Shown here piece after piece: positions 2,369-53,356 of a stretch of DNA of 59,107 bases. Positions within the stretch are counted from its first letter, which is position 1, and the number at the start of each line of letters is the position of its first letter. This DNA comes from a virus, in the IMG/VR virus record IMGVR_UViG_3300023184_000140, positions 1 through 59,107 of that record; one strand, 5' to 3'. The notes beneath the pieces are model-generated. The model saw only the letters and a list, made by a program, of their open reading frames with translations, was not told the DNA's origin and did not search any database. A program made the translations under genes and the position numbers.

Positions 2369-4476
2369 ATTCCGTATCTACCTTTCTCAATTGCTGCTAC
2401 TACATTTTCATCCACTTGCAAGTAATGATTTGCGCGTCCTTTGGGTACTTCTAATTCAACTCTTACGAGGCTACCGTCGTTTAGCAAACTGGTTATAGCT
2501 CGCTCTTTACGTTCTTGAGAACCTTTTACACCACCCTGATTAGCCGGTAGTCGTTCATAGTGAGAACGTGAGCGACCAGGATCTTTGCGTACAAGGTCAG
2601 TTATATCATCACAAAGTTTGTTCCATACTTCTAACTCTTTAGCTTCTTTACGATCTTCTTTGAGTTGCGCACGTTCACCCGTCTTGAGAGGTCTGGCGAC
2701 TGAGTGAGAGAACCAAATCTCTTTGTCGTAACCTAACACATCTTTATGCGTCTCTTTGTTTTGAATCAAGTCAAACGTCAGCTCATGGAAGGCTACAGGA
2801 AACCTGATCTTTAAAGCTTTTAACACACGTGGGGCATCGTTGTCTTCACCGTCTTTAAACACTGTGTAAACACCTTGAGCATCACCTGTCCAAGCAGATG
2901 CACCGCGAGGTGAGAGCAGGTCAGATTCACCCATACCGTGTGTTTTGGAAGTGTGACTGACGATGATGATTGGGAAAGCTGAGAAGGATTGCTTTATGTA
3001 AGCCATTGCCCGACCGACCTCTGCGTTGTCGTTCTCGTTTTCTAAATCAAACACAGCGTTAGCGGTGTCAAAGATTACGAGCGGTAAAGCAGAATACATT
3101 TCACCGTTAGCTTTCTTGTTGTCAACTGTCCATTCTTTATACTCATCTGCTACCTGCGAGACTATCTTAGGGTCTAAGCGTTGCGCAGCTATAACTCTAA
3201 CCCTTGAGTCAAAGTCAGCTGTACCCATGCCAGTGTAACCCCATGAGTATAACGAGTAAATGACACGTTGCACTTGAACTACAGACTCAGTTATGATGAT
3301 TACGTTACGCCGTACAGAGGGACGCAGAGCGTAGTCAGTTGGGCACAAGTGAGCGGTAGCCAGAGCCATCGGCACTATTAGAGTTGTCTTACCTACACCA
3401 GGAGCACCGGCTACGACATTGACGCCAGTTGACATAAAGTCGTCGTAAACATATTCAAAGACGGTAACGCGAGATGCACCGCTGTCTTTAGAGTTCTTAA
3501 GACTGAGAGGGTGAGTAGAGTTGTTACCGGCTTCAGGTTTACTATTACCTGCCCAACCGTTATCAATCGCCATTCTAAAGATTGAGCGGTAGGTAATACT
3601 GTGTGGTTGATCTAAGTCTCTTTCCCACTTTTTACGTTGAGCACTGGCATCAAACTTATCACTGCGCGCAGACCATTCAGTCCAGACTTTGTATCCGTTC
3701 TCACCGTATGACTTAAGCACCATACCGACGTTGACCCAAGTAGTGTAGTCATCAGCGTCAACGTGACGTAATGCTGAGCGTAAGTCGTCAAACGTCTGAG
3801 CGGTAGCGACTGGCACCCCTCCACGTTCAGTCAGGCTATAATCGACTGTAGCACGTGCCTTGCCCGCTATTAGCGAAGGGAGAGGGGAAGGTTTTGCCGG
3901 TTTAGATTGAGACAGCGGAGAGCGACCGGCTTCCCACCTATAAGCACCAGAGGGTCCGAGTGAGGGAGCTACGCAGATATAACCATTGTGTTTGAGGTCT
4001 AACCCTGCACCGAGCGAGCCAGGGAATGACAACTCTGGGTCAGCTACAAACAGACGATGTTCACCGCCACCTTGAGTTATAGCAGTACAGTCAGAATGCA
4101 GCACACCGTGTTCTGCTTCTAAGGTGGCTAGAGACTCCCGACCGCCGTTTTGTGGGTCAATGTCTAGGGCGATAAGTCCGGACGTAGAGAGGGATATTCC
4201 TATACCTGCGTCGGGATCTTCTGCCCACCAGTTGCGTATTGTTTGTTCGTCTACCGTTGAGTCTTGGTGTCCGTGGGGTACGAGGTTAGCTTGAGGATGC
4301 TTACCGGCTTTATGGCCAGGAGCATCGTTAGGCAGACCGCAGCGGCATTGACCATGGTCGTCAACTGACCAAACAGGCAACACGTACCAACCCAACTTAG
4401 AGTATGCAATAGCATAGTCTAAAGTTGTTGGAGCCTTATCAACAAGACCGAATTTATTCGTCTGCTTCACCACCAT
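2365..4476 (-). CDS. Primase-polymerase / RepA-like helicase (703 aa)
   Basis: The start at 4476 has GAGGAG at a good distance. The N-terminal half is a bifunctional primase-polymerase domain: GWYVLPVW, a Cys/His-rich insert, then catalytic D105 and D107 in ALDIDPQNGG, with QGGGEHRLF further on. A PriCT-2-like linker follows (about 230-305, ALRHVDADDYTTWVNVGMVL). The C-terminal part is a RecA-fold ATPase with Walker A GAPGVGKT (357-364) and a Walker B-like LVIFDTANA. Such proteins make primers and unwind DNA at the phage fork, and would work with the family B polymerase at 13842-15683. Confidence 0.9.
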   Translation of the reverse strand: MVVKQTNKFGLVDKAPTTLDYAIAYSKLGWYVLPVWSVDDHGQCRCGLPNDAPGHKAGKHPQANLVPHGHQDSTVDEQTIRNWWAEDPDAGIGISLSTSGLIALDIDPQNGGRESLATLEAEHGVLHSDCTAITQGGGEHRLFVADPELSFPGSLGAGLDLKHNGYICVAPSLGPSGAYRWEAGRSPLSQSKPAKPSPLPSLIAGKARATVDYSLTERGGVPVATAQTFDDLRSALRHVDADDYTTWVNVGMVLKSYGENGYKVWTEWSARSDKFDASAQRKKWERDLDQPHSITYRSIFRMAIDNGWAGNSKPEAGNNSTHPLSLKNSKDSGASRVTVFEYVYDDFMSTGVNVVAGAPGVGKTTLIVPMALATAHLCPTDYALRPSVRRNVIIITESVVQVQRVIYSLYSWGYTGMGTADFDSRVRVIAAQRLDPKIVSQVADEYKEWTVDNKKANGEMYSALPLVIFDTANAVFDLENENDNAEVGRAMAYIKQSFSAFPIIIVSHTSKTHGMGESDLLSPRGASAWTGDAQGVYTVFKDGEDNDAPRVLKALKIRFPVAFHELTFDLIQNKETHKDVLGYDKEIWFSHSVARPLKTGERAQLKEDRKEAKELEVWNKLCDDITDLVRKDPGRSRSHYERLPANQGGVKGSQERKERAITSLLNDGSLVRVELEVPKGRANHYLQVDENVVAAIEKGRYGI

Positions 4477-8104: not shown

Positions 8105-8280
8105 TGTTAGTTTGGGCTGCAGGATTCTTGACAGCTCTAGGTGTATTTACAGGCGTAGTAGGTATAACTTTTTATCTTTGGAGTCAACATGACAAACCTA
8201 ACAGAACACTTGAAGAAATCAGGTCTAGCCGTTCCAGCCAACAAAAGAGTGTGGATGTACTTAAAAGACCACCCGCATAA
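8089..8280 (+). CDS. Small membrane protein (63 aa)
   Basis: One membrane segment lies at residues 3-31 (LVWAAGFLTALGVFTGVVGITFYLW), followed by a charged tail. The frame overlaps the preceding gene by 16 bases and the next by 92, which is long, so the C-terminal part may be shorter in function. The N-terminal hydrophobic helix argues that it is real. Role unknown. Confidence 0.45.
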   Translation: METFVMLVWAAGFLTALGVFTGVVGITFYLWSQHDKPNRTLEEIRSSRSSQQKSVDVLKRPPA

Positions 8281-8590
8281 GTCAGCTAAAGAGATAGCGT
8301 TGGGTTTGAATGTTCACCCCGCTCAGGTATATACAGCTCTAAACGATTTATCGTCTCGCAAAATGGTAGTTAACCATATTGAGTTAGAAAAGCGAGGAGT
8401 AGGTAGACGTAGTATTAAAGTTTATCAAGCCGCAGGAGACAGGTTTGAATTGAAACCTGTGAAAAGTTTTGTCAAGATTGAAGAGCCTGTGGTAGTTCAG
8501 CCTGTCAAGCCGGTTGAAATAAACATAGACACGTTAAATGTTAAAGAAGCTAAAGCGTTATACGACAAATTGAAGGAGATATTTGGATGA
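8189..8590 (+). CDS. Winged helix-turn-helix protein (133 aa)
   Basis: Residues 18-75 read as a winged helix: VWMYLKDHPHKSAKEIALGL, then VHPAQVYTALNDLSSRKMV as the recognition helix, then a wing with GVGRRSIKVYQ. After a proline/valine-rich linker a short C-terminal helix follows (VKEAKALYDKLKEIFG). It ends four bases into the PLP enzyme gene, so it heads the hypermodification operon and may regulate it or bind modified DNA. Both are inference. Confidence 0.7.
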   Translation: MTNLTEHLKKSGLAVPANKRVWMYLKDHPHKSAKEIALGLNVHPAQVYTALNDLSSRKMVVNHIELEKRGVGRRSIKVYQAAGDRFELKPVKSFVKIEEPVVVQPVKPVEINIDTLNVKEAKALYDKLKEIFG

Positions 8591-9546
8591 GTGACACAGT
8601 GTTTCCTGAACTGTCTCTTGATAGAAATAAAGTTCGCTGGGAAGAACATTTAGGTATCCGTACCCCGTGGGAGAACCATAAAGGTATCTGGTTCAAGCGT
8701 GAAGATTACTTTGCGCCTCTCGGTTACGGTGGTCCGAATGGTTCTAAGATGAGGCAGCTGATATGGTACGTAAACAAATTCAAGACCAATCGTACTCATA
8801 TAGTGACCGGAGCGAGCATCCAGTCTCCTCAGCTGTCTATGTCTGCGATTGTTGGAGCACATTACAACCTCAAGGCTCGCCAGATTGTTTACAGCAAACC
8901 AGAGACAGTTCTGAAACACGAAAACCCAAGAATTGCTTACGGTTTCGGTGCGGAGTTTGAATATGCTAACGGACCATATAATCCTATACTGCAGCGCATG
9001 GTTCAAGACTTAACTAAACCTACTTCGCTGGTCGTTGAGTACGGTATTACTGTACCGCATGACAGGTATCCGGCAGAGTACGTCCAGAAGTTCCACGAGG
9101 TGGGCGCTAATCAGGTCTCTAACATGCCTAATGACGTTCAGACGCTAATCATGCCTGCAGGTTCTTGCAACTCTCTTACCAGCGTTTTACTAGGTTTAAG
9201 CAGGGATAGTAAAAACTTAGAAACCTTGTTCACTATCGGTATCGGACCAGATAAGCGTAGCTGGGTGAAAGAGCGTTTAAAAGTTATGGGTGTTGACATG
9301 GACAAACTGCCGTTCAAAGTGCGTCATCATAGTCTGCACGATACCGGCTTCAGCAAGTACAGTGACAAGTTTAACGGAGAAGAATTTGACGGTATCAGGT
9401 TCCATCCAACGTATGAGGCAAAAATGTGGCGCTGGCTAAAGCAGACCAACATGTTTGAAAACGAACACGTAGGTTTTTGGATTGTAGGTAGTGCGCCTAA
9501 CTCTAAAGTTATTGAACCGTTCTACACGAGGAAATACGATGCTTGA
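8587..9546 (+). CDS. Fold-type II PLP-dependent enzyme of the hypermodification cluster (319 aa)
   Basis: The N-terminal WFKRED and GGPNGSKMRQL match tryptophan synthase beta/ACC deaminase-like PLP enzymes; K54 is the likely Schiff-base lysine. A glycine-rich phosphate loop is visible near PAGSCNSLTSVL. PLP enzymes in phage thymidine hypermodification act after an amino acid has been attached to the base in DNA and process its alpha carbon, for instance by decarboxylation. Because the gene overlaps the aGPT-Pplase-like gene, I assign it to that step. An independent amino acid lyase role cannot be excluded. Confidence 0.75.
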   Translation: MSDTVFPELSLDRNKVRWEEHLGIRTPWENHKGIWFKREDYFAPLGYGGPNGSKMRQLIWYVNKFKTNRTHIVTGASIQSPQLSMSAIVGAHYNLKARQIVYSKPETVLKHENPRIAYGFGAEFEYANGPYNPILQRMVQDLTKPTSLVVEYGITVPHDRYPAEYVQKFHEVGANQVSNMPNDVQTLIMPAGSCNSLTSVLLGLSRDSKNLETLFTIGIGPDKRSWVKERLKVMGVDMDKLPFKVRHHSLHDTGFSKYSDKFNGEEFDGIRFHPTYEAKMWRWLKQTNMFENEHVGFWIVGSAPNSKVIEPFYTRKYDA

Positions 9547-10534
9547 TTATCGCCTACCTGAAAACAGGGCAGAGTATTTTGATGACCTGTACATAATGAA
9601 TTTAAAGAACGGTGTCATGCCAGGACTCGTGTATCTTTACATGCCTATGTTGTCTCACCATAACAGCTGGGACAGTGAGCAGACACTTTGGTTCGCGTTC
9701 TTAAACGGTATGACACAGAACCCTATTACGTCGTTGCGTCTGTTTGAGCAGCTGCCTGAGGTTCCTCCTGCTGGAGCAAAGTTGACTCAGTTTGACACAT
9801 GGTTCAACGATAACTGGGACACCCTGCAGTTTGACACAGACCGCCGGTATCAGAAGCGAGATACAATACAGGCGATAAAAGTTTACGCAGAGCTGGTTAA
9901 ACAGTTCGGCTCACAAAGTAAAATGCTACTCGACAAAGACTACGCTACTTTGTGGAACATAGTACGTAACCATTACCATTCTTTTGGCAGACTGTCGTCT
10001 TTCAGTTACCTTGAGTACGTACACTTAAACGGGTTCGGTGCAGACTGTAAAGACCTTTTGTTTGAAGACAAATCAGGTAGCAAGTCGCACCGTAACGGTA
10101 TGTTCTTTCTGCTGGGTCAAGATGATTTAGTATGGGACAAAAGACTACCGAACGGGCAGGATGGTAATTACACAGACTTTAAAAAGATATGTAGCTGGTT
10201 GAGCGTACAAGCTGACGAGTATTTAGAAAAGTTTTACACAAAGAAATACCCGCACTGGGGTGTGAGCAAGTTTACTTTCGAGTCTAACCTGTGTACGTTT
10301 AAGAATCATTTCTTCGGTCGTCGGTATCCTGGTGTGTACGCTGACATGGCATGGGAGCGTATTGAGTGGGCAGAATCTCGCGGTATAAACTGTGACATTT
10401 TTAAAGAGATGCGAGCCGCTAAGTTACCTGACTGGTTGCGTCAGGAATGCGGAACTGACAAGTTGACGCTGAAACAAAAAGCTGCTATATTCCCTGAGAC
10501 GGGTTTTCCGTACAGAGGAGAACATTTCTTATGA
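9539..10534 (+). CDS. aGPT-Pplase / amino acid:DNA transferase-like enzyme (331 aa)
   Basis: The start at 9539 has CGAGGAAA upstream and overlaps the preceding stop. The all-helical sequence, with TLWFAFLNGMTQNP, DRRYQKRDTIQAIKVYAEL and GRLSSFSYLEYV, fits the alpha-glutamyl/putrescinyl thymine pyrophosphorylase group, probably clade 2. These enzymes replace the pyrophosphate of 5-pyrophosphomethyl-dU in DNA by an amino acid or amine. The kinase, HMUDK_hel and ThyA-like neighbours make this assignment coherent. The substrate is not readable from sequence; serine or glycine are the known cases. Confidence 0.75.
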   Translation: MLDYRLPENRAEYFDDLYIMNLKNGVMPGLVYLYMPMLSHHNSWDSEQTLWFAFLNGMTQNPITSLRLFEQLPEVPPAGAKLTQFDTWFNDNWDTLQFDTDRRYQKRDTIQAIKVYAELVKQFGSQSKMLLDKDYATLWNIVRNHYHSFGRLSSFSYLEYVHLNGFGADCKDLLFEDKSGSKSHRNGMFFLLGQDDLVWDKRLPNGQDGNYTDFKKICSWLSVQADEYLEKFYTKKYPHWGVSKFTFESNLCTFKNHFFGRRYPGVYADMAWERIEWAESRGINCDIFKEMRAAKLPDWLRQECGTDKLTLKQKAAIFPETGFPYRGEHFL

Positions 10535-11115
10535 GACATCAATTAGTCAATATTCGTGGCTGTAACGGTTCGGGCAAGACTACGATCGTGCGTAGGTTTT
10601 TAGACAAACTACCTACGCAGTCTTTAGGCGGTAGACCGGATAAACCTGTCGGGTACAAAGTAGATGCGTCTGGCTGGGGTATTCAAGCTCCCGTATTTAT
10701 CGTAGGTAGTTATGAGAACACTTGCGGCGGAGCTGACGGAATAAAGACTCAGGAAGAAATTGCAGAGCGTATCGTACAAGCTTTACCTTACGGACACGTG
10801 ATTGTGGAAGGTTTGTTGATGTCTAAGTCTAGCGACAAAGGACACACAGCGCCTATCATAAGAGACCATAACGGTATATTTGCATTTTTAGATACACCAT
10901 GGGACGTATGTTTAGATAGAGTATTGAACCGCCGCTTAGCAGCCGGTAATGACAAAGAATTTGATCCTGAGAAAACGATGCGTATGGCGTATAAACAATG
11001 TCATCGTAGCGCAGAACTCTTAACCGCTGCCGGTGGTTATGACGTTAGATGGCTAGATTGGCAAGACCCTATAACTGGAGTAGTAGGATACTTTAAAGAG
11101 GCTGAAAATGGTTGA
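10531..11115 (+). CDS. P-loop kinase, candidate 5-hmdU DNA kinase (194 aa)
   Basis: Walker A is GCNGSGKT (10-17), near the N-terminus. A conserved VIVEGLLM strand and a lid-like LDRVLNRRLAAG segment follow, as in small nucleotide kinases. In hypermodified-thymidine phages a P-loop kinase phosphorylates 5-hydroxymethyl-dU within DNA, activating it for substitution. Here it is a separate gene overlapping the helical-domain gene by 8 bases. A free-nucleotide kinase is the main alternative. Confidence 0.75.
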   Translation: MRHQLVNIRGCNGSGKTTIVRRFLDKLPTQSLGGRPDKPVGYKVDASGWGIQAPVFIVGSYENTCGGADGIKTQEEIAERIVQALPYGHVIVEGLLMSKSSDKGHTAPIIRDHNGIFAFLDTPWDVCLDRVLNRRLAAGNDKEFDPEKTMRMAYKQCHRSAELLTAAGGYDVRWLDWQDPITGVVGYFKEAENG

Positions 11116-12031
11116 GACCTGCCCGTACCCTAGACCGACTGCTGAAAATGTTTGCACGATGGAGTCACTGCTTTACTTCGTGTGGGAGAGAGAAGTCGTA
11201 AGGATCGTGAAAGAGCGAGGTGGTGAAAAGCCATGGACTAATGATCCCGTGTTTGAAAAATATAAGTTTACTAACATACACCGTAAAGACGACAGAGTAT
11301 CAAAGTGGATCATAAAAGAAATAATCAATCTAAACCTGAAAGATAAAAACCTTTGGTTCTCTTTGCTAATCGCGAGGTTAGTCAACTGGCCACCGACTCT
11401 TGAAAGGTTGCTCTATGAAGATATTATTCCATGCCCCCCAGAGGATTTCGACGGTAAAGCGTTCTCTAAAACTATTGAGAGCTTCAAAAAAGAATCGACG
11501 AAAGTTTACGGGGGAGCGTATATGGTTTACCCGACCAAGTTGGATATCGGTAAATGCAAATCGTATTCACTTTCGAAACATATTATCGGCGCTGCTATCG
11601 AGGCATCAGCAGAAATATATTTCTCTTTGTGGAGGAAGGATGAGAATAAGTCGGTTCAAAGCTTTGTCGATACGTTATCTAAATGCTATGGAATTAGCAC
11701 CTTCATGGCAGGGCAGGTCGCGGCAGATTTATCGTACGCCAGAGGTCATCTTGACGATGCGGAAGACTTATATACCTTTGCGCCGATGGGACCAGGTAGT
11801 ATGCGAGGGTTAAACTATTTACAGAATAGAAAACCTTTTGCTGGTTGGCAGCAAGATGATTTCAACCAGATACTGTACGACATAAATAAAAACATAGCAG
11901 AAGAATTACGCATAACTGATTTAACTTTACACGATGTACAGAACGTGATGTGTGAGTACGGTAAGTATTGCCGAGTTGTGTTAAACGAAGGTGTACCTAA
12001 AACATTATATAAGCCTGAAATGGAGTTCTAA
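11108..12031 (+). CDS. HMUDK_hel-like DNA base hypermodification protein (307 aa)
   Basis: FTNIHRKDDRVSKWI (54-68), ARLVNWPPTLER (89-100), GQVAADLSYA, MGPGSMRGLNYL and a final LHDVQNVMCEYGKY are the landmarks of the helical domain family associated with 5-hmdU DNA kinases (HMUDK_hel). The family, described in base-hypermodification clusters of phages, is thought to act on 5-hmdU in DNA together with the P-loop kinase. It sits between the kinase and the ThyA-like enzyme. Recognition is from motif memory, not a search. Confidence 0.8.
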   Translation: MVETCPYPRPTAENVCTMESLLYFVWEREVVRIVKERGGEKPWTNDPVFEKYKFTNIHRKDDRVSKWIIKEIINLNLKDKNLWFSLLIARLVNWPPTLERLLYEDIIPCPPEDFDGKAFSKTIESFKKESTKVYGGAYMVYPTKLDIGKCKSYSLSKHIIGAAIEASAEIYFSLWRKDENKSVQSFVDTLSKCYGISTFMAGQVAADLSYARGHLDDAEDLYTFAPMGPGSMRGLNYLQNRKPFAGWQQDDFNQILYDINKNIAEELRITDLTLHDVQNVMCEYGKYCRVVLNEGVPKTLYKPEMEF

Positions 12032-13030
12032 ATGGAAATAACTGTACGCAACGTCAACCAAGCTTTTTCTGAAGTATTCTGGAAGCTTAAAGCAGCTAAC
12101 TTACAACCTGAACAAACTAGAAACGGACCAGCGTTAGTGTTTCCAGAGCCTGTGATTACAACGTATCTACGACCAACAGAGAGGGTATTATTCCATGCCG
12201 GACGAGACGCCAATCCTATTTTTCACCTCATGGAAGCGATATGGATGCTTGCAGGACGCAATGATGTTGCATTCTTGGAACAATTTAATCGTACGATCGG
12301 GCAGTACAGCGACGACGGAAAAGTGTTTAACGCTGCCTACGGACACCGCTGGCGTAAACATTTTGGACATGATCAACTCATCGAAGTTATAAACCTTTTA
12401 CGTAAAGACCCTAAATCTCGACAAGCTGTGATTCAGATGTGGGACGATAAAGATTTAACGAAGGAAACTAAAGACAAAGCTTGCAATACGCAGGTTGTGT
12501 TCAGTATTCGCGGAGGTTTCTTTTTAGACATGACTGTGTTCAATAGGTCTAACGATATCTGGTGGGGAGCGTATGGCGCTAATGCTGTACACTTCAGCGT
12601 GTTACAAGAGTTCGTAGCTACTTCCGTAGGTATGCAGGTTGGCGTGTACCGTCAAATTAGCAATAATTTACATTTGTATACGGAACTGTATGATGCTGAG
12701 AAATACGTGAACTCTCCTCCGAACGCACACATATATGATCACTATAGCAACTACCTAGTTAAACCTTTGCCGCTCATGTTGGACGGTCATTACCAGAGCT
12801 TTTTATGGGACGCAGAAGAGTTTTGCACGAAACCTTTCAACGATAAAATTGTTTACCGCCACCCGTTCTTTCAAGGTGTAGCTGTACCTATGGCTACAGT
12901 CAGCGCGATGCGTAAAGGTAAAGTTACAGACGGAAGAGGTTACGCTTCAAAGATAAAAGCACCTGATTGGAAAAACGCTACGCTTCAATGGATCAATAAT
13001 AGAGAAGCTAAAAAGCAATCAAAAGTTTAA
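12032..13030 (+). CDS. Thymidylate synthase-like, probable dUMP hydroxymethylase (332 aa)
   Basis: The ThyA fold is recognisable: catalytic Cys151 in KACNTQ, phosphate-binding RS at 172-173, D175, and GAYGANAVHF where ThyA has LGxPFN. The shift around the dUMP-binding Asn and the absence of PCH at the active site point away from housekeeping ThyA and toward the variant seen in phages that make 5-hydroxymethyl-dUMP. Methylene-THF and dUMP would be substrates. The product feeds replication, after which the kinase and transferase modify it in DNA. Plain thymidylate synthase remains possible. Confidence 0.8.
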   Translation: MEITVRNVNQAFSEVFWKLKAANLQPEQTRNGPALVFPEPVITTYLRPTERVLFHAGRDANPIFHLMEAIWMLAGRNDVAFLEQFNRTIGQYSDDGKVFNAAYGHRWRKHFGHDQLIEVINLLRKDPKSRQAVIQMWDDKDLTKETKDKACNTQVVFSIRGGFFLDMTVFNRSNDIWWGAYGANAVHFSVLQEFVATSVGMQVGVYRQISNNLHLYTELYDAEKYVNSPPNAHIYDHYSNYLVKPLPLMLDGHYQSFLWDAEEFCTKPFNDKIVYRHPFFQGVAVPMATVSAMRKGKVTDGRGYASKIKAPDWKNATLQWINNREAKKQSKV

Positions 13031-13106: not shown

Positions 13107-13604
13107 ATGAAAACCACCCTTGAATTCATTTTAGCCGGTGCTGCTGTAAAGCGATACCACACGGTGACTACGCTCATGACTGAGACCGTTGGTCATCATT
13201 CGCATGGTGTTGCTTTGCTGTGTATGCTTCTTGACCTTAACCCGAGTCGGGGGTTAATACACGCTGCTCTTTTCCACGATTTAGCTGAGCATCAGACGGG
13301 TGATATACCTTCACCTGCTAAGCATAAATACGGCATCGGTGATCAGGTTAGCCAGCTTGAAGAAAAGTTACTCAAAGAAGCTGGTATAGCTATGCCTCAA
13401 CTTCATCCTGACGACGCAAGAATTTTAAAATTAGCAGACGTGGCACAAGGTGCGTTGTTCTGCGTGAAAGAAATGTCTCTAGGTAATAGTAACATGAGAA
13501 GCATTTTCAATCGTTATATCGCGTATGCTGAAGAGATGATGCTTTACGGACGTGAAAAAGAATTGTTTAATCTAATTAAGGAGATGGCAGATGAGTGCAA
13601 ATGA
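13107..13604 (+). CDS. HD-domain 5'-deoxynucleotidase, YfbR-like (165 aa)
   Basis: HSHGVALL (H33), then HDLAEHQTGDIPSPAK (H57, D58, E61) and a later LKLAD give the metal-binding HD set; the second block closely follows the YfbR pattern HDxxExxTGDxPxPxK. YfbR removes phosphate from deoxyribonucleoside 5'-monophosphates. In this phage it may deplete dTMP or balance the pool in favour of the modified dUMP; that is inference from its place just after the ThyA-like gene. Length is slightly below that of E. coli YfbR. Confidence 0.85.
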   Translation: MKTTLEFILAGAAVKRYHTVTTLMTETVGHHSHGVALLCMLLDLNPSRGLIHAALFHDLAEHQTGDIPSPAKHKYGIGDQVSQLEEKLLKEAGIAMPQLHPDDARILKLADVAQGALFCVKEMSLGNSNMRSIFNRYIAYAEEMMLYGREKELFNLIKEMADECK

Positions 13605-13842
13605 CAAGCAGGTTGCAGGTACGCATTACCGCTCAGGTATTCAGCACTGGGACTACGTGGTAGCTAACGATCTTGATTATTTTCAAGGTCAAATTACTAA
13701 GTACGTCACCCGTTGGAAAAATAAGAACGGTATGGCTGATTTGTTGAAAGCTCAACACTTCCTTGAGAAGTATATTGAGATCATCAACACGCCGCCTGAC
13801 GATGGTTCCGAACCTACTAGAAATTACATTAATCAGGACTAA
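13591..13842 (+). CDS. DUF3310 protein (83 aa)
   Basis: The pattern HYRSGIQHWDYVVANDLDYF, then ITKYVTRWKNKNGMADLLKA and HFLEKYIEII, is that of DUF3310, a small helical domain found in many phage nucleotide-metabolism clusters and sometimes called nucleotide kinase-like. The start overlaps the nucleotidase end and the stop overlaps the polymerase ATG (TAATG). Function is unproven. Confidence 0.85.
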   Translation: MSANDKQVAGTHYRSGIQHWDYVVANDLDYFQGQITKYVTRWKNKNGMADLLKAQHFLEKYIEIINTPPDDGSEPTRNYINQD

Positions 13843-15683
13843 TGGCTACGTTTGTGTTTGATACTGAGACATTACCGAATCGTACTTTGTTCTGCGCTAA
13901 AAACGTAGATACAGGCGAGTGGTTTGATCTCTGGCAGCATGAGGAAGACTCAGCGCAGAGACTGTTGAAATTTGTTCAGCAACCTGACTCTACGTTTGTA
14001 GGTTTCAATAACCGCTCGTTTGACAACGTAGTGGTTGCTGCATTTTGTGCCGGACGCACTTCGTTAGAAATTAAACGTATAGCTGACGATTTGATTGTGA
14101 ATCGTGTAGCACACTGGCAGGCAATGCGTAAGTTCAGTCTCAGGGACGTAATGATAGACACTATAGACATTATTGAAGTGGCTCCGTCGTTCGTAGGTTT
14201 AAAAGCTTACGGAGCGCGTATGCACATGCCTATACTGCAAGACATGCCGATAGCTCATGATGCTCATATTACGCTTGAGCAGGAACCGCTGGTGCTTGAA
14301 TATTGTCATAATGACGTTGATACTACGCAAGAGTTGCTACGCCAGCTTGAAAAAGAAATCATGCTCAGAGTAGACATGTCAAAGCAGTACAAAACTGACA
14401 TGCGTAGTAAGTCTGATTCACAGATGGCTGAACAAGCTTACGTAACGTCTATGAAGCTTGAGCGTAGAGATAATGAAGTACCAGACACCGTAACATACGT
14501 ACCTCCTCAGTTTCTCAAGTTCATAGATACCGAGTTACAAGGTTTGTTGGATAAGGTTTCTGTGCATGTGTTTGATATGAATAAAAACACAGGGCACGTC
14601 ATACTGCCAGATTTTTTGGGTGGAACTACAATAAAATTCGGCGTAGGTGAATATCAACTTGGAGTAGGAGGAATACATAGTGTACACGACAAATCAATCT
14701 GCTACGTCGCTGGTGACGACATCATCTGCGACATCGATGCTGCCTCGTTTTACCCCTCGATTATCCTTGAATGTGGTTTTATCCCCAAGTCGCTCGGGAA
14801 ACCGTTTATCGATGAGTACAGAAATATTTATAACAAACGACTCGAAGCAAAGCGAACCGGAGACAAAGTAATTAACGAAACTCTAAAGATTTCGTTAAAT
14901 GGCACTTTCGGTAAACTGGCCAGCAAATATTCAGTTCTTTATTCCCCCGATCTGATGTTAGCGGTAACGCTAACTGGCCAGTTTACACTTTTAATGTTGA
15001 TTGAATGGTTGGAGAAAGCCGGTGCGGTAACTTTATCCGCTAACACCGACGGCATAGCGATTCGCTACTCGAAATCGCTGCACGAGACCGTTCAGAAGGT
15101 TGTGGCTAAGTTTAGTGAAATATCGCGGTTTGAGTTTGAATTTACGCCATATAGAGCGTTAGCTATGAAAGACGTAAACAACTACATAGCAATCAAGCCA
15201 GATCGCAGTCTAAAAGTAAAAGGTATATATGCGCCGTTATCGTTGCGGAAGAACCCCACAGCGCAGGTCGCTTCAGACGCAGTCGGTCAGTGGCTCGCGG
15301 TCGGTACGCCATTTGAGGAGACTATACGCAATGCACCGTTTCAAGATTTTATCTCGGCTAGGAATGTCACTGGAGGGGGTGAGCAGTTTGGCAAATTCCT
15401 TGGCAAAGTCGTTCGTTGGTACCAATCTAGTGATGGTGAAGTGGATCCTATTAGATATGTTTCCAACGGAAACAAAGTACCAAAGACGGATGGTGCGAAA
15501 GCGTGCATGATTTTAAAAGACAAAGTCATACACCCTAAAGATTTAGACTATGACTGGTATATCAAAGAAGCAATTAAGATAGCTATAGCAGTAGGTTGCA
15601 AGGATTATTTAACAGCGGAGCAGTTGGCTTTGGTTGCTCCTCCACCAAAACAGCCTAGGAAGAAGAAAAATGGAACAGGGTAA
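13842..15683 (+). CDS. Family B DNA polymerase with 3'-5' exonuclease (613 aa)
   Basis: Exo I is FDTET (D7, E9), Exo II contains GFNNRSFDN and Exo III YCHNDVDTT. Motif A is DAASFYPS (D299), motif B KISLNGTFG (K349, N353, G357). Motif C reads ANTDG (N401, D403) in place of the usual YxDTDS, so one of the two aspartates is replaced by Asn. At 613 aa it is compact. It is the only replicative polymerase seen and would use the Prim-Pol helicase as partner. The C-terminal tail is lysine-rich (PPKQPRKKKNGTG). Confidence 0.92.
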   Translation: MATFVFDTETLPNRTLFCAKNVDTGEWFDLWQHEEDSAQRLLKFVQQPDSTFVGFNNRSFDNVVVAAFCAGRTSLEIKRIADDLIVNRVAHWQAMRKFSLRDVMIDTIDIIEVAPSFVGLKAYGARMHMPILQDMPIAHDAHITLEQEPLVLEYCHNDVDTTQELLRQLEKEIMLRVDMSKQYKTDMRSKSDSQMAEQAYVTSMKLERRDNEVPDTVTYVPPQFLKFIDTELQGLLDKVSVHVFDMNKNTGHVILPDFLGGTTIKFGVGEYQLGVGGIHSVHDKSICYVAGDDIICDIDAASFYPSIILECGFIPKSLGKPFIDEYRNIYNKRLEAKRTGDKVINETLKISLNGTFGKLASKYSVLYSPDLMLAVTLTGQFTLLMLIEWLEKAGAVTLSANTDGIAIRYSKSLHETVQKVVAKFSEISRFEFEFTPYRALAMKDVNNYIAIKPDRSLKVKGIYAPLSLRKNPTAQVASDAVGQWLAVGTPFEETIRNAPFQDFISARNVTGGGEQFGKFLGKVVRWYQSSDGEVDPIRYVSNGNKVPKTDGAKACMILKDKVIHPKDLDYDWYIKEAIKIAIAVGCKDYLTAEQLALVAPPPKQPRKKKNGTG

Positions 15684-24649: not shown

Positions 24650-26583
24650 TATGCTGCTCCCTTCAAATACTGTAATGGTGATTTAGCATTCGGGCTAAAC
24701 TTACCTTTGGCCATTTCTTTACCTTTTTGTTTACGTAACTGTTGGCGCATCGCATCTAAACGTAGAGCACCTTCTTTGTTAGAACCGTCTCCTAACAACG
24801 CTACTGTTTCAGCATCCATAACATATTCTCCGTCTGAAAGCTTTGCATCAATGGTGTCTTCTCGACCAGAACCCGCACCCTGTGCAAACCTACCTATCAT
24901 AGAAAGAGGACCACCTTGAGCTAATTTATGAACAGGCGTATTATAAGTTCCAGAAGTAATTTTATTCCAATTCGTAGCCATGTAAGAATCTAAACTTTGA
25001 TTAGCTCTGTTTGCATCTTGCTGCATTCTTGCCCAGTCCCATTGCACAGAAGGTCTGTTAAAATACTCTTGCTGACTAGGTGACATACCGCTTATAGCTT
25101 TTTGGGCATCAGGTGGTCTTTGCATTGATGAGGCTAAAAGAGCCATAGTTGCTAAGTTTCCAGCACCACCAAACCCGCTCAAGCCTCCCCCGCCTCCAGC
25201 TGTTTGAGTACCTATAGAAGCACCTATCGGATTATTATAACCCGCCGGAGCCATCAGATTATTTGAAATACCTCCGTTTGACGGAACAGTACTGAAATTA
25301 CCTGACATTGACCTAACAGTATCAGATGCGGCAGAAGGACTACCTAGACTATAATTTGCGTTTTGAGTTCCTGTGTCAACGTATTTTAAACCACCGGTGT
25401 CGCTATACGGATTTTGATAAAGCCCTGTAGGTACTTCAGAACCAACCGTAGAAAGAGAAGTTTTTAACCCGTCAACAGTCATGTCAGCCGGTTTCATTTT
25501 CAAGCCTAATGACGAATCCGGAGTGCCGCTCAAAGCGTTTGAGGTGTATTGAGTTCCTCCAGCAGCTAAAGCTGTCAATGCTGCCGCTTTAGGGTCGTAA
25601 CCTACGGTTAAAGCGTTACCGAAACTCCTACCCGCAGCTCCTCCAAACCCGCTACCAGTACCTACAGCATTTCCTATAGCTCCGCCAAGTGCTCCTTGCG
25701 TAGCACCGCCTAAGAAACCTTTACCTGTAGCCATGCCGGCGACACCGCCAACTAAACCGCTACCGAGAATAGATTCACCGGCTTTTCCTAAACCTAAACC
25801 TAAAGTACTGTTAGCAGCGTTTCCTACAACACCACCTAAACCGCCACCTAAGCCGCCCATAAGCGCACCTTGTAGCACGTTACCGCCAGTTAGAGCAGAG
25901 GAGGCTCCACCTATGATAGCACTACCTAACATAGATGCGCCTACACCTGTAGCACCTAAACTAGTTCCGATAATTGTTCCAAGTCCTGGGGCGATTACGC
26001 TTAAAGCGATAGGTAAAATAGCACCTAAAAGACCGCCGCCTTTAAATTCACGTAGTCCGGTGTTAGGGTTGATTGTCCCTGAACCACCCATTCTACGTAA
26101 TACTTCAGCTTCTCTAGGGTTGATATGAGCTAACATTGTGTCGCCACCGCGACCTTGGTTAGCTAAGCTCCTAGCAACAGCCAAACCACCGCGAGCGAAA
26201 CCTTGTTTAGTGAGTCGTTCTTCCACACCGTAAAGAGCAACTAGCAGAGATATAACGAACACTTGGTCAAACTGAGGAGGAGCTTGATCTTCTGTGACTA
26301 CACCGTCTTTAATAGCCGCAGCTCTGACCTGTTCGTAGTTTTCAGGATGTTGAAGAACATACTCTAGCATTTTAATGATTTCTTGAACGTCTCCAGCCAT
26401 GATGGGCATACCGGAGATTTGTTGTTCAATCATGTCAATCGCTTGCTGGAACCTTGGGTCTCGGTTTGCGATGTCTAAAATAGCTTGTTTATTCAAAGCA
26501 GGACGCTCACCACCTTGCATATCTGCAGGAGGAGGTTCAGCAGGAGCCATTTGCATAGGATCCATCATAGTATTCTCATTCAT
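24649..26583 (-). CDS. Glycine-zipper-rich putative ejection protein (644 aa)
   Basis: Residues 180-330 consist almost entirely of GxxxG-type segments (LGGVVGNAANSTLGLGLG, GGVAGMATGKGFLGGA), predicted to insert into membranes. Upstream is GFARGGLAVARSL, downstream LAQGGPLSM and SDGEYVMDAETVALLGDG. The SDGEYVxxAxxV motif near the C-terminus is well known at the ends of tape measure and injection proteins. Its overlap with the GNAT gene (ATGA) and downstream genes of like composition make a translocation-channel role likely. Confidence 0.65.
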   Translation of the reverse strand: MNENTMMDPMQMAPAEPPPADMQGGERPALNKQAILDIANRDPRFQQAIDMIEQQISGMPIMAGDVQEIIKMLEYVLQHPENYEQVRAAAIKDGVVTEDQAPPQFDQVFVISLLVALYGVEERLTKQGFARGGLAVARSLANQGRGGDTMLAHINPREAEVLRRMGGSGTINPNTGLREFKGGGLLGAILPIALSVIAPGLGTIIGTSLGATGVGASMLGSAIIGGASSALTGGNVLQGALMGGLGGGLGGVVGNAANSTLGLGLGKAGESILGSGLVGGVAGMATGKGFLGGATQGALGGAIGNAVGTGSGFGGAAGRSFGNALTVGYDPKAAALTALAAGGTQYTSNALSGTPDSSLGLKMKPADMTVDGLKTSLSTVGSEVPTGLYQNPYSDTGGLKYVDTGTQNANYSLGSPSAASDTVRSMSGNFSTVPSNGGISNNLMAPAGYNNPIGASIGTQTAGGGGGLSGFGGAGNLATMALLASSMQRPPDAQKAISGMSPSQQEYFNRPSVQWDWARMQQDANRANQSLDSYMATNWNKITSGTYNTPVHKLAQGGPLSMIGRFAQGAGSGREDTIDAKLSDGEYVMDAETVALLGDGSNKEGALRLDAMRQQLRKQKGKEMAKGKFSPNAKSPLQYLKGAA

Positions 26584-27035
26584 AACTTACCTCTACGCCA
26601 TGCGTGTGTGTAATATTCTTCTGCTAAAAAGCCGTATATGTGTAGATCATCATCTGCGAAAGATTTACGCATTATACCTTCTAGTTTGAAACCTAAATGT
26701 TCTACAAAATTCTTTGAAGCTTCGTTTTTACCTCTAATTAGACCAGTTACTCTAGCAGCCCCAAGCTGGTCAAACGTGTAGCTAAAAACAGCATTAAACA
26801 ATGTTAAAACTTCTTTCGGTGAATCAAACCCTTTAGGTTTTAAAGCAATGTTTATGTCTACGTTCCTAGATGAAAAATTTGTAAAAACAACAGCGCATGT
26901 AAATTCATTGTTTTCATCTACCACAGACATAACTCTGCAAAACCCTGTTATGTTTAGAGCACCTACACGTTCTTTTACCCATTTTTCAGCTTCTTCCTCT
27001 CGGTTAAAGCCGATGAATCTCATCATGTTAAACAC
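26580..27035 (-). CDS. GNAT-family N-acetyltransferase (151 aa)
   Basis: The pattern CRVMSVVDENNEFTCAVVFTNF, then FDQLGAARVTGLIRGKNEASKNFVEHLGFKLEG shows the GNAT core, with the acetyl-CoA loop near RGKNEASKNFVEHLGF and the final beta-bulge. It resembles RimJ/RimL-like enzymes. Acetyltransferases occur next to tail or injection genes in several podoviruses, so it could act on a virion or host protein early in infection. Substrate unknown. Confidence 0.8.
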   Translation of the reverse strand: MFNMMRFIGFNREEEAEKWVKERVGALNITGFCRVMSVVDENNEFTCAVVFTNFSSRNVDINIALKPKGFDSPKEVLTLFNAVFSYTFDQLGAARVTGLIRGKNEASKNFVEHLGFKLEGIMRKSFADDDLHIYGFLAEEYYTHAWRRGKL

Positions 27036-33824: not shown

Positions 33825-35585
33825 TTAACTGTAATTTAGTTTAAGAATAACTACACCTGAACCACCAACACCGCCAACAGAATAAAAATTGCCGGCTGAA
33901 CCTCCACCGCCACCACTGTTTGCACCGCCAGCACCTCCGTCTGCACCCGTAGTAGATGCAGAACTACCGTTACCGCCTGCAGAAGGATAAGCAGAACCTC
34001 CTTTACCAGCTCTGTTCAAATTAGAACCGTCACCACCACCGCCGCCGCCACCGATACCACCATTACCAGCCCTATCATGCGTTGAAGGCTGACGACTATC
34101 GGCAAAATCAACACATCCACCGCCTCCACCACCAGCATAATAGTTGCCGTCTATCCATTGAAGACCAGGACCACCGCTACCTTGTGAACTGGTCGTTGAT
34201 GCTGCTTCTCCATTACCACCAGGACCACCAGCGCCGCCACCACCGCCACCGTTACCTACCCAAAAACCGCTCGCTGCTTGTCCGCCAGAAAACCCTTGTA
34301 ACGGACTTGTAGCAGGAGTATTACCCGCGCCCCCAGCGCCATTGTCTGTACCGCCACCGCCACCTGAACCGCCGACGTTACCTGTACCACCGCTATAAGA
34401 CCCACCGCCGCCCCCGCCAGTAGACGTAATGGAACTAAAAGTAGAATCGGTTCCGTAACCGCCTTTAGTACCACTACCGTTTCCACCAGAAGCACCTGAG
34501 CCGCCAGCGCCAATTGTAATTGTATACGAGTTACCAGCTGTTACAGCTAAACTAGTGCCAGACCTATAACCACCCGCACCGCCACCACCACCGTGTTGAT
34601 ATCCGCCACCGCCCCCACCAGCTACAACTAAATAATCAACTGACGTTACACCTGTCGGCATCGTGTATGACTGCGTTGAAGTAAATCTAGCAAAAGTGCT
34701 TACAGGTTGTATGTACCTGATAACGACTAAACCAGACTGACCAGGAAACCCAAAACCTAAACCAGTAGTTGTTCCATTACCACCGTTTCCGCTTCCTGAA
34801 GCAATTGATGTTATTGGGTTTGGACCAGCACCTGATGACGCACCTTTACCTCCAGTTGCATAAGTTACAGACGGACCAGATAATGTAGAAGCAGTTCCAA
34901 TACCACCGGCTGCACCACCCCCAGGAATAGTAATTCCTGCAGTAGTACCTCCAGCCCCGCCTGAACCGCCACCGCCACCGGCAGTTGCGTTACCAGCGCC
35001 GACAGTAGAATTTGAACCGCCAGCGTTCCCTTGACTTGGGGAAGTAGAAGGCGTATTACCGCTACCACCTGTACCAGCATTAGGGTACCCGTACGAGCCG
35101 CCGCCAGAACCGCCAGAATTACCGTTGTACCCCCCAGGAGAAGCATATGGTCCCGCAGCGCCACCGCCTCCTCCAGTAGCGACTAAAGAACTAAATATAG
35201 AAGCAACACCGTCACCACCATACAAGTTACCGGAAGGAGCGTTAACTGTATACCCGCGATCACCACCAGTTCCAACAGTTACGGTATATGTACTACCAGG
35301 AATAACTGTAAAACCTGTGCCAGTGAGAAAACCACCAGCTCCCCCACCACCACCAGCTCCACCGCCACCACCAGCTACTACAAGGTAGTCAATTTGCGAC
35401 ACCCCCGCAGGGCAAGTCCAAGTGCCAGAAGAATAAAAACTGACTATTTTAGTATTGCCCAATCCTGGCCATATACCTGATTTAATAGCCTGTAAAGCTT
35501 GGTTTAACGTCCACACACCTGACGCTTGCGTAGTAGATATTGTTATTGGAGCTTTTGTGATGATTCGACCAGGATAATTACTCAT
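33825..35585 (-). CDS. Glycine-rich tail fibre/adhesin, two tandem domains (586 aa)
   Basis: After a short N-terminal segment (SNYPGRIITKAPIT) two homologous domains follow, about 45-290 and 295-586. Each opens with a W/Y-T-x-P-x-G...DYLVVAGGGGG strand and closes with SG(L/V)V(V/I). Between lie GGxGG runs that suggest polyglycine II bundles, as in the gp38-type adhesin and related glycine-rich modules. Very high G content in a low-complexity chain. Paralogue of the next gene (35594-37288). Confidence 0.8.
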   Translation of the reverse strand: MSNYPGRIITKAPITISTTQASGVWTLNQALQAIKSGIWPGLGNTKIVSFYSSGTWTCPAGVSQIDYLVVAGGGGGAGGGGGAGGFLTGTGFTVIPGSTYTVTVGTGGDRGYTVNAPSGNLYGGDGVASIFSSLVATGGGGGAAGPYASPGGYNGNSGGSGGGSYGYPNAGTGGSGNTPSTSPSQGNAGGSNSTVGAGNATAGGGGGSGGAGGTTAGITIPGGGAAGGIGTASTLSGPSVTYATGGKGASSGAGPNPITSIASGSGNGGNGTTTGLGFGFPGQSGLVVIRYIQPVSTFARFTSTQSYTMPTGVTSVDYLVVAGGGGGGYQHGGGGGAGGYRSGTSLAVTAGNSYTITIGAGGSGASGGNGSGTKGGYGTDSTFSSITSTGGGGGGSYSGGTGNVGGSGGGGGTDNGAGGAGNTPATSPLQGFSGGQAASGFWVGNGGGGGGAGGPGGNGEAASTTSSQGSGGPGLQWIDGNYYAGGGGGGCVDFADSRQPSTHDRAGNGGIGGGGGGGDGSNLNRAGKGGSAYPSAGGNGSSASTTGADGGAGGANSGGGGGSAGNFYSVGGVGGSGVVILKLNYS

Positions 35586-35593
35586 CGTTCACC

Positions 35594-37288
35594 TTAATAT
35601 AATCTAAGAACAACTAAACCAGAACCGCCATTATAAGCACCACCGCCTGAATTACCTCCACCGCCACCCGTGCCGGTGTTAGCAGTACCGTTACTACCTG
35701 TGTTATCGCCTTGGCCAATACCACCATTAATACTATTTGAACCGCCTTGCCCACCAGGACCACTACTACCAAGACCTTGGAAAGAACCGCCTCCACCACC
35801 GCAAGAATATACTGCAAGACGCCCAGCAGAAATAGCTAACGATGACGCTAAACCAGCACCGCCAGCACCACCGGCTTGACCAGTAACATTTGCTCCTACC
35901 CCACCAGCTCCACCGCCGCCAGCACCATGATAGTTAATCGAGGGAGAACCTGCGCTACCGCCATTATTTCCTTGAGACGGACTTGTGGTTGGAGAATTTC
36001 CTGTACCACCGCCAGCACCTGTACCACCACCCCCACCAGAACCACCGTTTCCACCGTTAACCGGATCAGCGCCACTACCGTACCCGCCGCCAGTAGAAGT
36101 AATAGATGAGAAAGTAGAATTAGAACCTGACGATCCAGCTGTACCAGTGCCAGTGTTAGTGCTGCCAGCACCACCAGCGCCTACAGTGATGGTGTATGTA
36201 CCAGAAACAGACAACCCAGTACCTGTTCTAAACCCACCACCGCCGCCTCCACCGCCATGACGCGAACCACCGCCTCCACCACCTGCTACAACAAAATAAT
36301 CTGCTTGTGTATATCCGGATGGTATCGTGTAAGTCGTGGTAGATGCAAAAGATACAATTGTAACACCTTGTTGCAAGTAACGGAGAATGACTATACCTGA
36401 ACCGCCTGTACCGCCGTAACCTTGATTGTCTGGGGCACCAGCATAATGAGCGCACCCACCACCGCCGCCACCTGAATTAAGGGCACCGTTGTTACCAGGA
36501 TTAACTGGTCCTGGTGGACCAACCGCAGTACCACCGTTACCACCTCCCCCAAGACCACCAGTGCCAGGATATGCGTTAACACCGCCGCGATTAAATATTC
36601 CACCACCGCCGCCACCGGCGTAGTAAAAACCAGTACCTGAAATTGCTGAAAGTGAACCATTTCCACCGTTACCAGAATATGGTGCGGTAGTTCCGCCAGC
36701 TTGTCCCGCCGCACCCGCTGCGCCACCGCCGCCCGTGTAATAAGGGTCGCTGTTTGAACTTTGTCCGTTTCCGCCATTGTTACCTTGGCTCGGGGATGTA
36801 CTTGGTGTGTTTCCAGCGCCACCGGTATTAGCAGCACCGGCATCTGTTCCACCGCCCCCACCACCGCAACCTCCGGCAGACCCAGAAGTTTTATACCCGC
36901 CAGCCCCGCCACCACCAGCTGAAGTAATTGAGCTAAATACAGAATTAGCTCCGTTAGATCCAGAAGCTGGAGCATTAACAGCACCTGAACCAGCTCCACC
37001 AGCACCAACAGTGACTGAATAAGAAGTGCCAGGAACAACAGCTAACCCAGCACCTGTACGAAAACCGCCAGCCCCAGCACCGCCAGTACACGCCCCACCG
37101 CCACCAGCGACGACTAAGTATTCTACGGATGTCACACCTTCAGGGCATACCCACGTGCCAGATGCAGTAAATACTTGTACTACAACATTGTACGTTTTAT
37201 TAAGACCCGAAAGCGTCCAAATACCTGAGCCTAAAGCTACCGGAGGGGTAGCGCTTAGTATTTGACCAGGATAACCATGAATTGCCAT
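35594..37288 (-). CDS. Glycine-rich tail fibre/adhesin, paralogue (564 aa)
   Basis: Built like its downstream neighbour: N-terminal AIHGYPGQILSATPPV, then two glycine-rich domains (about 37-305 and 310-564), each beginning with a DYFVVAGGGGG- or EYLVVAGGGGA-type strand and ending GGSGIVIL or GSGLVVL. Together the two genes contain four copies of one module, so an ancestral domain duplicated inside a gene and the gene then duplicated, or the reverse. Host receptor binding is likely; which surface structure is unknown. Confidence 0.8.
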   Translation of the reverse strand: MAIHGYPGQILSATPPVALGSGIWTLSGLNKTYNVVVQVFTASGTWVCPEGVTSVEYLVVAGGGGACTGGAGAGGFRTGAGLAVVPGTSYSVTVGAGGAGSGAVNAPASGSNGANSVFSSITSAGGGGAGGYKTSGSAGGCGGGGGGTDAGAANTGGAGNTPSTSPSQGNNGGNGQSSNSDPYYTGGGGAAGAAGQAGGTTAPYSGNGGNGSLSAISGTGFYYAGGGGGGIFNRGGVNAYPGTGGLGGGGNGGTAVGPPGPVNPGNNGALNSGGGGGGCAHYAGAPDNQGYGGTGGSGIVILRYLQQGVTIVSFASTTTYTIPSGYTQADYFVVAGGGGGGSRHGGGGGGGGFRTGTGLSVSGTYTITVGAGGAGSTNTGTGTAGSSGSNSTFSSITSTGGGYGSGADPVNGGNGGSGGGGGTGAGGGTGNSPTTSPSQGNNGGSAGSPSINYHGAGGGGAGGVGANVTGQAGGAGGAGLASSLAISAGRLAVYSCGGGGGSFQGLGSSGPGGQGGSNSINGGIGQGDNTGSNGTANTGTGGGGGNSGGGAYNGGSGLVVLRLY

Positions 37289-52900: not shown

Positions 52901-53356
52901 AAATTGTTTTAAACGAGACACAGACTCGTCAACATTACCCTTCAACCAGTTGCCACCTTTAGGCTTGATGACGTTCATGGTCGGTGACACACCGTATTTC
53001 TCAGCGAGGTTCACTGCGTGCCGAGCAGCATATGGCGCTGCCGCTTTAGCCAGAGGTTTGACCATACGTGCTGCCGCCGGTACAAGTGGTGCAAAGTTCA
53101 TCGCCCCCGTTAGAGCCTCTTTGGTCTCTCCCGTCAACCCGTAGGTCTCGCCTCTACCCTGCGTGATCGGTGTACCGTAATTGATGTTCTCCATCGTACG
53201 GTATATCGGTGGTACTTGTAAGAAGTCTGAGATGAGAGCCGCCGGTGGGTTCTCGTAGCCGAACGGCTTACGTGCGAACTCGTCAGCTTTCTGTAGGTAG
53301 CGACCCAGCGCACCTACGACTGGGTATTGCTCAGGACGGGAACGGAACTCAGGCAT
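49982..53356 (-). CDS. Large virion-region protein with PcfJ-like domain and GFAQGG motifs (1124 aa)
   Basis: The N-terminal third is helical with a repeated KAxAxxxAxR pattern. Near residues 500-540 LKHCVGGYCDSVVNGYSRIF and then a SLRDAEGRPHATIEV segment fit the PcfJ-like family (HCVGG-Y...I(F/Y)S(V/L)R...P...T(I/V)E). Three GFAQGGxV/PYAKGGAV boxes lie at about 725, 895 and 1105, the same motif as in the ejection proteins. Position between terminase and portal suggests a packaged protein. PcfJ itself is of unknown function in conjugative plasmids. Confidence 0.65.
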   Translation of the reverse strand: MPEFRSRPEQYPVVGALGRYLQKADEFARKPFGYENPPAALISDFLQVPPIYRTMENINYGTPITQGRGETYGLTGETKEALTGAMNFAPLVPAAARMVKPLAKAAAPYAARHAVNLAEKYGVSPTMNVIKPKGGNWLKGNVDESVSRLKQFVREPAYVEDLGRREATGEMQPGITQQVISQNTRAEALNKWIESKLTKYLSNEMATAEDPIRLSIQEWPEKREMLLAEKQKQIDKAVSDMEKARAKRGFTPEMMTQSQARIRELNREKALIENRTGSHLTAEHLENAQGRVPEDVTEARKKAGEPIMGHTWRDFKGDPTTRARAEGWENIADKSIDTYLSGDLLDTIYRRARTNPNDKGRLASIYGEEVLKTNPWLEKVSLETPVYHIDQFRTGDMGLDHIADELQNAMRPGSDLPEHLRVDPKKLDKMSVPQVVDIIDQINAWRATQQAEASLAHSANAATVTHKEYPNAGLKWVELKLPEGEGGKKALEDALKYEGDTLKHCVGGYCDSVVNGYSRIFSLRDAEGRPHATIEVQPVKDNSPWDTIHKSLGDEKYRELHKDFWEMGGYGKDSPFYDPDMDVVLEKFLQSKGLETPKLERIEQIKGSRNGKPSEEVLPFVQDFVRSGEWRDVNDLRNADLAKIENSYLSEKDLRELAQQHGYPENVVGDEPIAYWRGMANVVRSGIEPGEQANTVLEAIRNFKPEGFAQGGSVNFAAGGHAEYDDDLIRQMAAELVDVQQERAAESGDIPEPSLLDSLRNMSPLGGHYSAGPFALDAWTNNRGVNLRGSAGTDHLRGYVDVDPRQKKVSQLGVTYEDMNPRGGYQLSANMDPETREKTLNAMYRKQLSDGSEFMVGGTHRPDSRQTMLNLMYRYGFAQGGAVHMEKGGSAKRKEPSPFDDLEPTFGDRMGAWVSDKVTEGAINLYDKLSNRDRMSAAHKIYLDTFARDKRDPITASDFNAEELSELQNLIRQKEKLSGGKGKGYIEYKDYDELTGGNRRKGVVANLIGGVMPPRPSLSKALGQFNYQLDPKTKQYKIIDEYDFNPQQTTYQDRKIDIPLEHYGDYLGEMSPYALARLYGGRKMPPGTGRKVELSVPYAKGGAVEFNPDEIDEMAAQLIEEQNG

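Follow-up and report, generated by a model that had tools for sequence, protein, structure and literature searches.

The closest described systems to the locus studied here are the thymidine hypermodification pathways of the Salmonella phage ViI and the Pseudomonas phages M6 and PaMx11. Here, we analyzed a 59,107-nucleotide stretch of viral DNA, the IMG/VR record IMGVR_UViG_3300023184_000140 (the window), where five genes at 8587-13030 form a compact operon predicted to encode a pathway of the same kind. They are a pyridoxal phosphate (PLP) enzyme, an amino acid:DNA transferase (ADDT), a P-loop kinase, its helical partner HMUDK_hel and a thymidylate synthase-like dUMP hydroxymethylase. Many thymines of the phage are predicted to be turned into amino-acid-derived bases, probably hiding its DNA from bacterial nucleases.

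ViI, of the Ackermannviridae, has all five enzyme types (genes 060, 061, 130, 182 and 199) as the window does, but its pathway genes are scattered over a 157-kb genome whereas those of the window are compact. Its serine is reportedly attached through the side-chain oxygen. In the DNA of ViI, 43% of the T positions are taken by 5-(2-aminoethoxy)methyl-deoxyuridine (5-NeOmdU) (PMC6449724).

M6 has a pathway for 5-(2-aminoethyl)-deoxyuridine (5-NedU) at gp051-gp058, and its kinase, helical subunit, synthase, HD hydrolase and polymerase genes are ordered as in the window. It also carries a radical S-adenosylmethionine (SAM)-type gene, gp053, annotated as a photolyase, that has no counterpart in the window. 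In M6, as the 2022 work of Lee is said to describe, glycine is bound through its nitrogen and a radical-SAM enzyme must first rearrange it; we take the M6 ADDT to be of this glycine type. PaMx11 has kinase, helical subunit, synthase and HD genes in common with the window. Its flavin adenine dinucleotide enzyme and GNAT acetyltransferase find no match in the window, and no PLP enzyme match was found in PaMx11.

A conserved five-gene module

The five open reading frames (ORFs) all lie on the plus strand. The first four overlap by 8, 4 and 8 bp in turn and the last pair abuts.

8587..9546, plus strand: fold-type-II PLP enzyme, predicted decarboxylase of a DNA-linked amino acid (phrog_3650, 3.7e-76)
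9539..10534, plus strand: ADDT (PF18724, 4e-17)
10531..11115, plus strand: P-loop 5-hydroxymethyldeoxyuridine (5-hmdU) DNA kinase, class A (phrog_800, 1.2e-19; HMUDK_HMUD1, 2.3e-4, below cut-off)
11108..12031, plus strand: HMUDK_hel, helical partner of the 5-hmdU DNA kinase, aGPT-Pplase1-like (PF18723, 1.8e-39)
12032..13030, plus strand: dUMP hydroxymethylase of ThyA fold (phrog_5131, 1.9e-106; PF00303, 3.5e-21)

A sequence-only reading of this DNA had named five adjacent or overlapping genes of these families in this order, and the coordinates, Pfam, PHROGs and a fold model of the PLP enzyme bear it out. In the profile search of the five proteins, the ADDT and HMUDK_hel matches, on which that reading had made itself depend, were both significant.

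The five genes are one module under strong purifying selection. IMG/VR scanned with the window PLP protein gave 65 loci, of which 52 extended 4.5 kb or more downstream and made the testable set. The order PLP-ADDT-kinase-HMUDK_hel-synthase on one strand is kept in 51 of these 52, and most loci continue downstream of the synthase with an HD nucleotidase, a DUF3310 protein and a polymerase. The ratio of nonsynonymous to synonymous substitution rates (dN/dS) between the window and one relative (L018) is 0.04–0.08 for the four genes compared, PLP, ADDT, HMUDK_hel and synthase.

The sole exception in order is L038 (IMGVR_UViG_3300045999_002215), with the PLP gene about 7 kb from the ADDT gene and on the opposite strand. 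Here the PLP gene is close to those of the terminase, and both it and the ADDT gene are still retained.

In four other loci (L045:8951-9772, L048:6857-7795, L063:2916-3662 and L075:8948-9715), extra genes are inserted between PLP and ADDT. They encode either DHH/DHHA1-like proteins or a protein of 250 aa; the copy in L063 has no Pfam match. The 101,830-bp record of another locus (IMGVR_UViG_3300047121_000347) has HMUDK_hel and ADDT each twice, with copies about 57 kb apart; an assembly running round a circle or a joining of two phages could account for it.

A window-type portal gene was also found in 17 of 18 long records bearing ADDT. Three records with a portal of about 50% identity gave no ADDT or HMUDK_hel match. 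No bacterial or prophage home of ADDT was found in genome contigs with the search patterns used, and no near DNA match to the window was found among phage records.

The enzymes

The synthase keeps the catalytic residues of E. coli ThyA (Cys146, Arg166, Ser167, Asp169, His207 and Tyr209) and the uracil-selecting Asn177; its own catalytic cysteine is C151 (codon 12482-12484) and its uracil-selecting asparagine N184. It lacks Trp80, where the alignment has a gap, and has Asn at the His147 position. Both traits are common to SPO1 gp29, annotated as a dUMP hydroxymethylase, in the multiple alignment. A Trp-to-Gly replacement at the Trp80 position was ruled out, as the multiple alignment has a gap there in both proteins. 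Mutant work has shown that Trp80 is important in the hydride transfer by which the methyl group is made, so its loss fits hydroxymethylation. Together with the phrog_5131 match, this SPO1 signature and the kept cysteine and asparagine suggest a dUMP hydroxymethylase.

The kinase has a Walker A motif, GCNGSGKT, at 10558-10581. It stands next to HMUDK_hel, as would suit a 5-hmdU DNA kinase; the PF18723 match of the partner is over the cut-off and the P-loop match under it. The PaMx11 kinase likewise scores under the Pfam HMUDK_HMUD1 cut-off. The phrog_800 label reads 'terminase small subunit' and is the same on the kinase genes of M6, PaMx11 and ViI.

The PF18724 match of the transferase exceeds the cut-off, identifying it as an ADDT, and the protein has residues invariant among its relatives. 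It is 27% identical to ViI gene 199 and finds ViI at 1.5e-24 in a sequence search, its profile matching gene 199 at 6e-25. The same sequence search finds no match in M6 or PaMx11, and the profile scores 0.095, noise level, against M6 gp51.

A PDB sequence search with the ADDT gave nothing useful, so a structure model was used. The model (pLDDT, the predicted local distance difference test, 88.6) was compared with 350,542 PDB chains. It had one good match, 8z2m, the 5-phosphomethyl-deoxyuridine (5-PmdU) glycinyltransferase gp46 of PaMx11, with probability 1.00 and template modeling scores of 0.49/0.55. The next-best probability was 0.07.

The nearer ADDT homologues are in other phages. Those of Zemanar and Montesquieu are 36% identical to the window's, and that of the Mycobacterium phage B4 is likewise nearer than ViI. 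In the Mycobacterium phage Zemanar (gp2-gp3, L009:785-2826), the homologue adjoins a gene labeled 'queuine transferase'. Pfam does not bear out gp2 as a queuine tRNA-guanine transglycosylase but gives a weak match to the Tet_JBP oxygenases (26.1 bits, under the cut-off). As no hydroxymethylase or HMUDK_hel match was found in Zemanar, this weak Tet_JBP neighbor suggests another route to a hydroxymethylated base.

The PLP protein gives no Pfam match by itself, but PALP is matched by 9 of 23 aligned proteins from the window and relatives. Its putative PLP lysine, K54 (codon 8746-8748) in GGPNGSKMRQ, is invariant in the 23, and this region aligns with the lysine motif of D-cysteine desulfhydrase and 1-aminocyclopropane-1-carboxylate (ACC) deaminase. 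The AlphaFold2 model (pLDDT 84.7) matches the same two fold-II enzymes at an E-value of about 1e-10.

The PLP enzyme is also 33% identical to ViI gene 182 (E 3e-61) and finds ViI at 4.9e-50, while the search gives no match in M6 or PaMx11. Against M6 gp52, its profile aligns over 31 columns, only around the PLP lysine. The ADDT and the PLP enzyme are thus homologous to ViI 199 and 182, the pair of a ViI-type subtype.

Three neighboring genes may serve the operon.

8189..8590, plus strand: TrmB/MarR-like winged-helix protein, possible operon regulator (TrmB, 0.0045, weak)
13107..13604, plus strand: HD-domain 5'-deoxynucleotidase, YfbR-like, predicted accessory (PF12917, 5.8e-12)
13842..15683, plus strand: phage DNA polymerase (phrog_1252, 5e-164)

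The winged-helix gene overlaps the start of the PLP gene by 4 bp. It is present in few loci and is not conserved in most relatives.

The predicted pathway and its alternatives

From the observed families, active-site residues, gene order, conservation and selection, we infer a route whose reactions, serine, decarboxylation, product and protection are predicted as follows. The synthase would convert dUMP to 5-hydroxymethyl-dUMP, and the HD nucleotidase would help to remove dTMP and lower its pool. The phage polymerase, which would have to accept hydroxymethyl-dUTP, would incorporate 5-hmdU. The P-loop kinase and its helical partner would then phosphorylate 5-hmdU in the DNA at preferred sequence contexts, and ADDT would put an amino acid in the place of this phosphate, bonded by its side chain and most likely by the oxygen of serine. 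The PLP enzyme would form a Schiff base with the free alpha-amine and decarboxylate the amino acid, giving 5-NeOmdU, as in ViI, or a close analogue. The modified base would shield the phage DNA from host nucleases.

We consider it rather probable that the operon is such a post-replicative thymidine hypermodification pathway, ending at 5-NeOmdU or a close analogue and shielding the DNA. The sequence-only reading had proposed the same succession of hydroxymethylation, incorporation, phosphorylation, substitution and PLP-dependent tailoring; all its parts are present and it holds as a prediction. A PLP enzyme requires a free primary alpha-amine and there is no radical-SAM enzyme here, so an amino acid linked by its side chain is expected. 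As the transferase and the PLP enzyme are ViI-like and the radical-SAM step of M6 is absent, the ViI-type base is the likeliest.

Several points weigh against this pathway. For the 8z2m fold match, the E-value is no better than 0.065, and the HMUDK_HMUD1 score of the kinase is below the Pfam cut-off. The ADDT is only 27% identical to that of ViI and nearer the B4 and Montesquieu homologues (36%), which may use a different amino acid. The solved folds nearest to the PLP enzyme are desulfhydrases and deaminases, not decarboxylases, and among fold-II enzymes elimination and deamination are the commoner reactions.

The last two points also speak for a new base, reached by the same route to an amino-acid adduct but with an amino acid other than serine or another PLP reaction such as elimination, deamination or racemization. 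The nearer ADDT homologues in Zemanar and Montesquieu, which may differ in specificity, and the folds of D-cysteine desulfhydrase and ACC deaminase agree with it, and so do the further genes between PLP and ADDT in some relatives. However, the closest characterized system with both the ADDT and PLP types is that of ViI, which ends at 5-NeOmdU, and the window operon is without an extra tailoring enzyme. The sequence-only suggestion that the final base could be new is hence kept as a lesser possibility, the known ViI-type base being likelier.

An M6-type route, with an N-linked glycine that is isomerized and decarboxylated to 5-(2-aminoethyl)-deoxyuridine, would suit the kinase, helical subunit and synthase, which are nearest M6/PaMx11 in sequence and order. 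It is very improbable, with no radical SAM (PF04055) isomerase in the window, no match to M6 gp53 in the window or its relatives, an ADDT profile at noise against gp51 and a PLP alignment confined to 31 columns of gp52. We hold it equally improbable that the pathway stops early at 5-hmdU or phospho-5-hmdU while ADDT and the PLP enzyme act on other substrates. Function is beyond the reach of sequence, and an ADDT relative does occur in Zemanar, a phage without a hydroxymethylase or HMUDK_hel match. Against such a stop stand the low dN/dS of both genes, their invariant residues and the order kept in all but one of the testable loci. The ViI-type outcome is preferred.

Exchange of the kinase gene

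The kinases of 34 non-redundant operons fall into two classes, that of the window being class A, with 71% identity within classes and 44% between them. The other proteins show almost no split along these classes, the within/between identities being 66/63 for ADDT, 61/58 for HMUDK_hel and 65/63 for the synthase. On the synthase tree, 7 changes of the kinase class label are required, at least 4 of them forced by well-supported branches. The class label is still clustered on this tree, with 1 of 500 shuffles as low. The swaps are recurrent but not constant.

One pair of loci, L020 (kinase at 2849-3424) and L061 (8552-9130), has opposite kinase classes while the other operon proteins are 83–94% identical. 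Their DNA identity drops from about 80% to about 54% inside the kinase gene and recovers at the gene ends. The boundaries there are sharp, the flanking genes being about 80–90% identical in DNA. The Walker A motif and a weak HMUDK_HMUD1 match occur in both classes.

The kinase has been proposed, from restriction data, to set the TG/TC context of the modification (PMC6449724). A kinase swap could then change which sites are masked, and the exchange is in itself a natural test of which enzyme determines that context. More speculative, and on balance doubtful, is that the operon makes an undescribed base and that sister phages, by exchanging one kinase class for the other, come to modify different sequence contexts and so mask their DNA with a code that changes fast.

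The phage lineage

The minus strand carries terminase, portal, GroES, capsid and SU10-type adaptor genes and an ejection protein. The portal is 58% identical to that of Caulobacter phage RW and 31–37% to those of the Roseobacter phages CRP-901/902 and the pelagiphage HTVC023P. The virion genes are ordered as in HTVC023P and CRP-902, so portal, GroES, capsid and order all relate the window to HTVC023P. PMC9599517 assigns the HTVC023P-type phages to the Podoviridae, and PMC10149686 groups CRP-901/902 with them in a single family.

This order, and homology in portal, terminase, adaptor, GroES and capsid, support the podovirus-like phage of the sequence-only reading. No tape-measure, tube or sheath protein was recognized among the ORFs scanned, which were not every ORF. 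A short tail is likely but not more, as the record of one relative, MW202545, has Siphoviridae in its title.

Bases 382-480 are repeated exactly as 59009-59107, the last 99 bp of the record, the kind of repeat that an assembly loop, here about 58.6 kb long, leaves behind. The record therefore looks nearly complete, and bases 1-381 are perhaps an alternative end.

Between the terminase and portal genes lies a 1124-aa ORF (49982-53356) with a PcfJ-like stretch. Two neighboring large ORFs matching phrog_2295, one of them also Gly_rich_2, have a 65% identical stretch in common (34294-34637 and 35970-36301) and are perhaps a duplicated tail-fiber gene. A GNAT acetyltransferase at 26580-27035 is among the virion genes; it is not favored as a base-tailoring enzyme, since CRP-902 has a GNAT at the same place and no operon.

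Comparison with known systems

The smaller toolkit of thymidylate synthase and aG/PT-PPlase1 near the polymerase is reported for HTVC023P-type podovirus pelagiphages of clades V, VIII and IX, and the accessible text of that paper names no ADDT, PLP enzyme or kinase in them, unlike the window (PMC9599517). The operon was not found in HTVC023P itself. The system had been called notable for a short-tailed phage, and this stands for the full operon but less so for the toolkit. We found no report of the full ADDT-PLP-kinase-helical-synthase operon in this lineage, of the M6/ViI mosaic or of the kinase swap, although the metagenome survey of Lee 2022 may list the lineage.

In the Glutamicibacter phage Montesquieu, as in the window, the ADDT and PLP genes are neighbors, and the phage also has P-loop kinases, HMUDK_hel and a thymidylate synthase/pyrimidine hydroxymethylase. 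It differs in its 47-kb genome with long-tail-type genes, the reversed ADDT-PLP order and the synthase and helical subunit lying apart from these two.

The chemistry is of a known kind. What is predicted here is an entire pathway for modifying DNA with amino acids, encoded in little space and conserved as a module of an uncultivated podovirus lineage that has been sampled widely. The five genes occupy 4.4 kb and could be co-expressed in a laboratory strain, so the chemistry is directly testable.

The window synthase is 44% identical to M6 gp58 and 34% to that of ViI, the helical subunit 30% to M6 gp55 (E 3e-33) and 21% to ViI, and the kinase 33% to both PaMx11 and M6 and 23% to ViI. The HD gene is 32–33% identical to its counterparts at this position in M6 and PaMx11. 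In contrast, the M6 ADDT and PLP enzyme hardly align with those of the window. By these comparisons, the window module is a mosaic, its kinase, helical subunit and synthase M6/PaMx11-like and its transferase and PLP enzyme ViI-like, combining an M6-like front half with a ViI-like back half.

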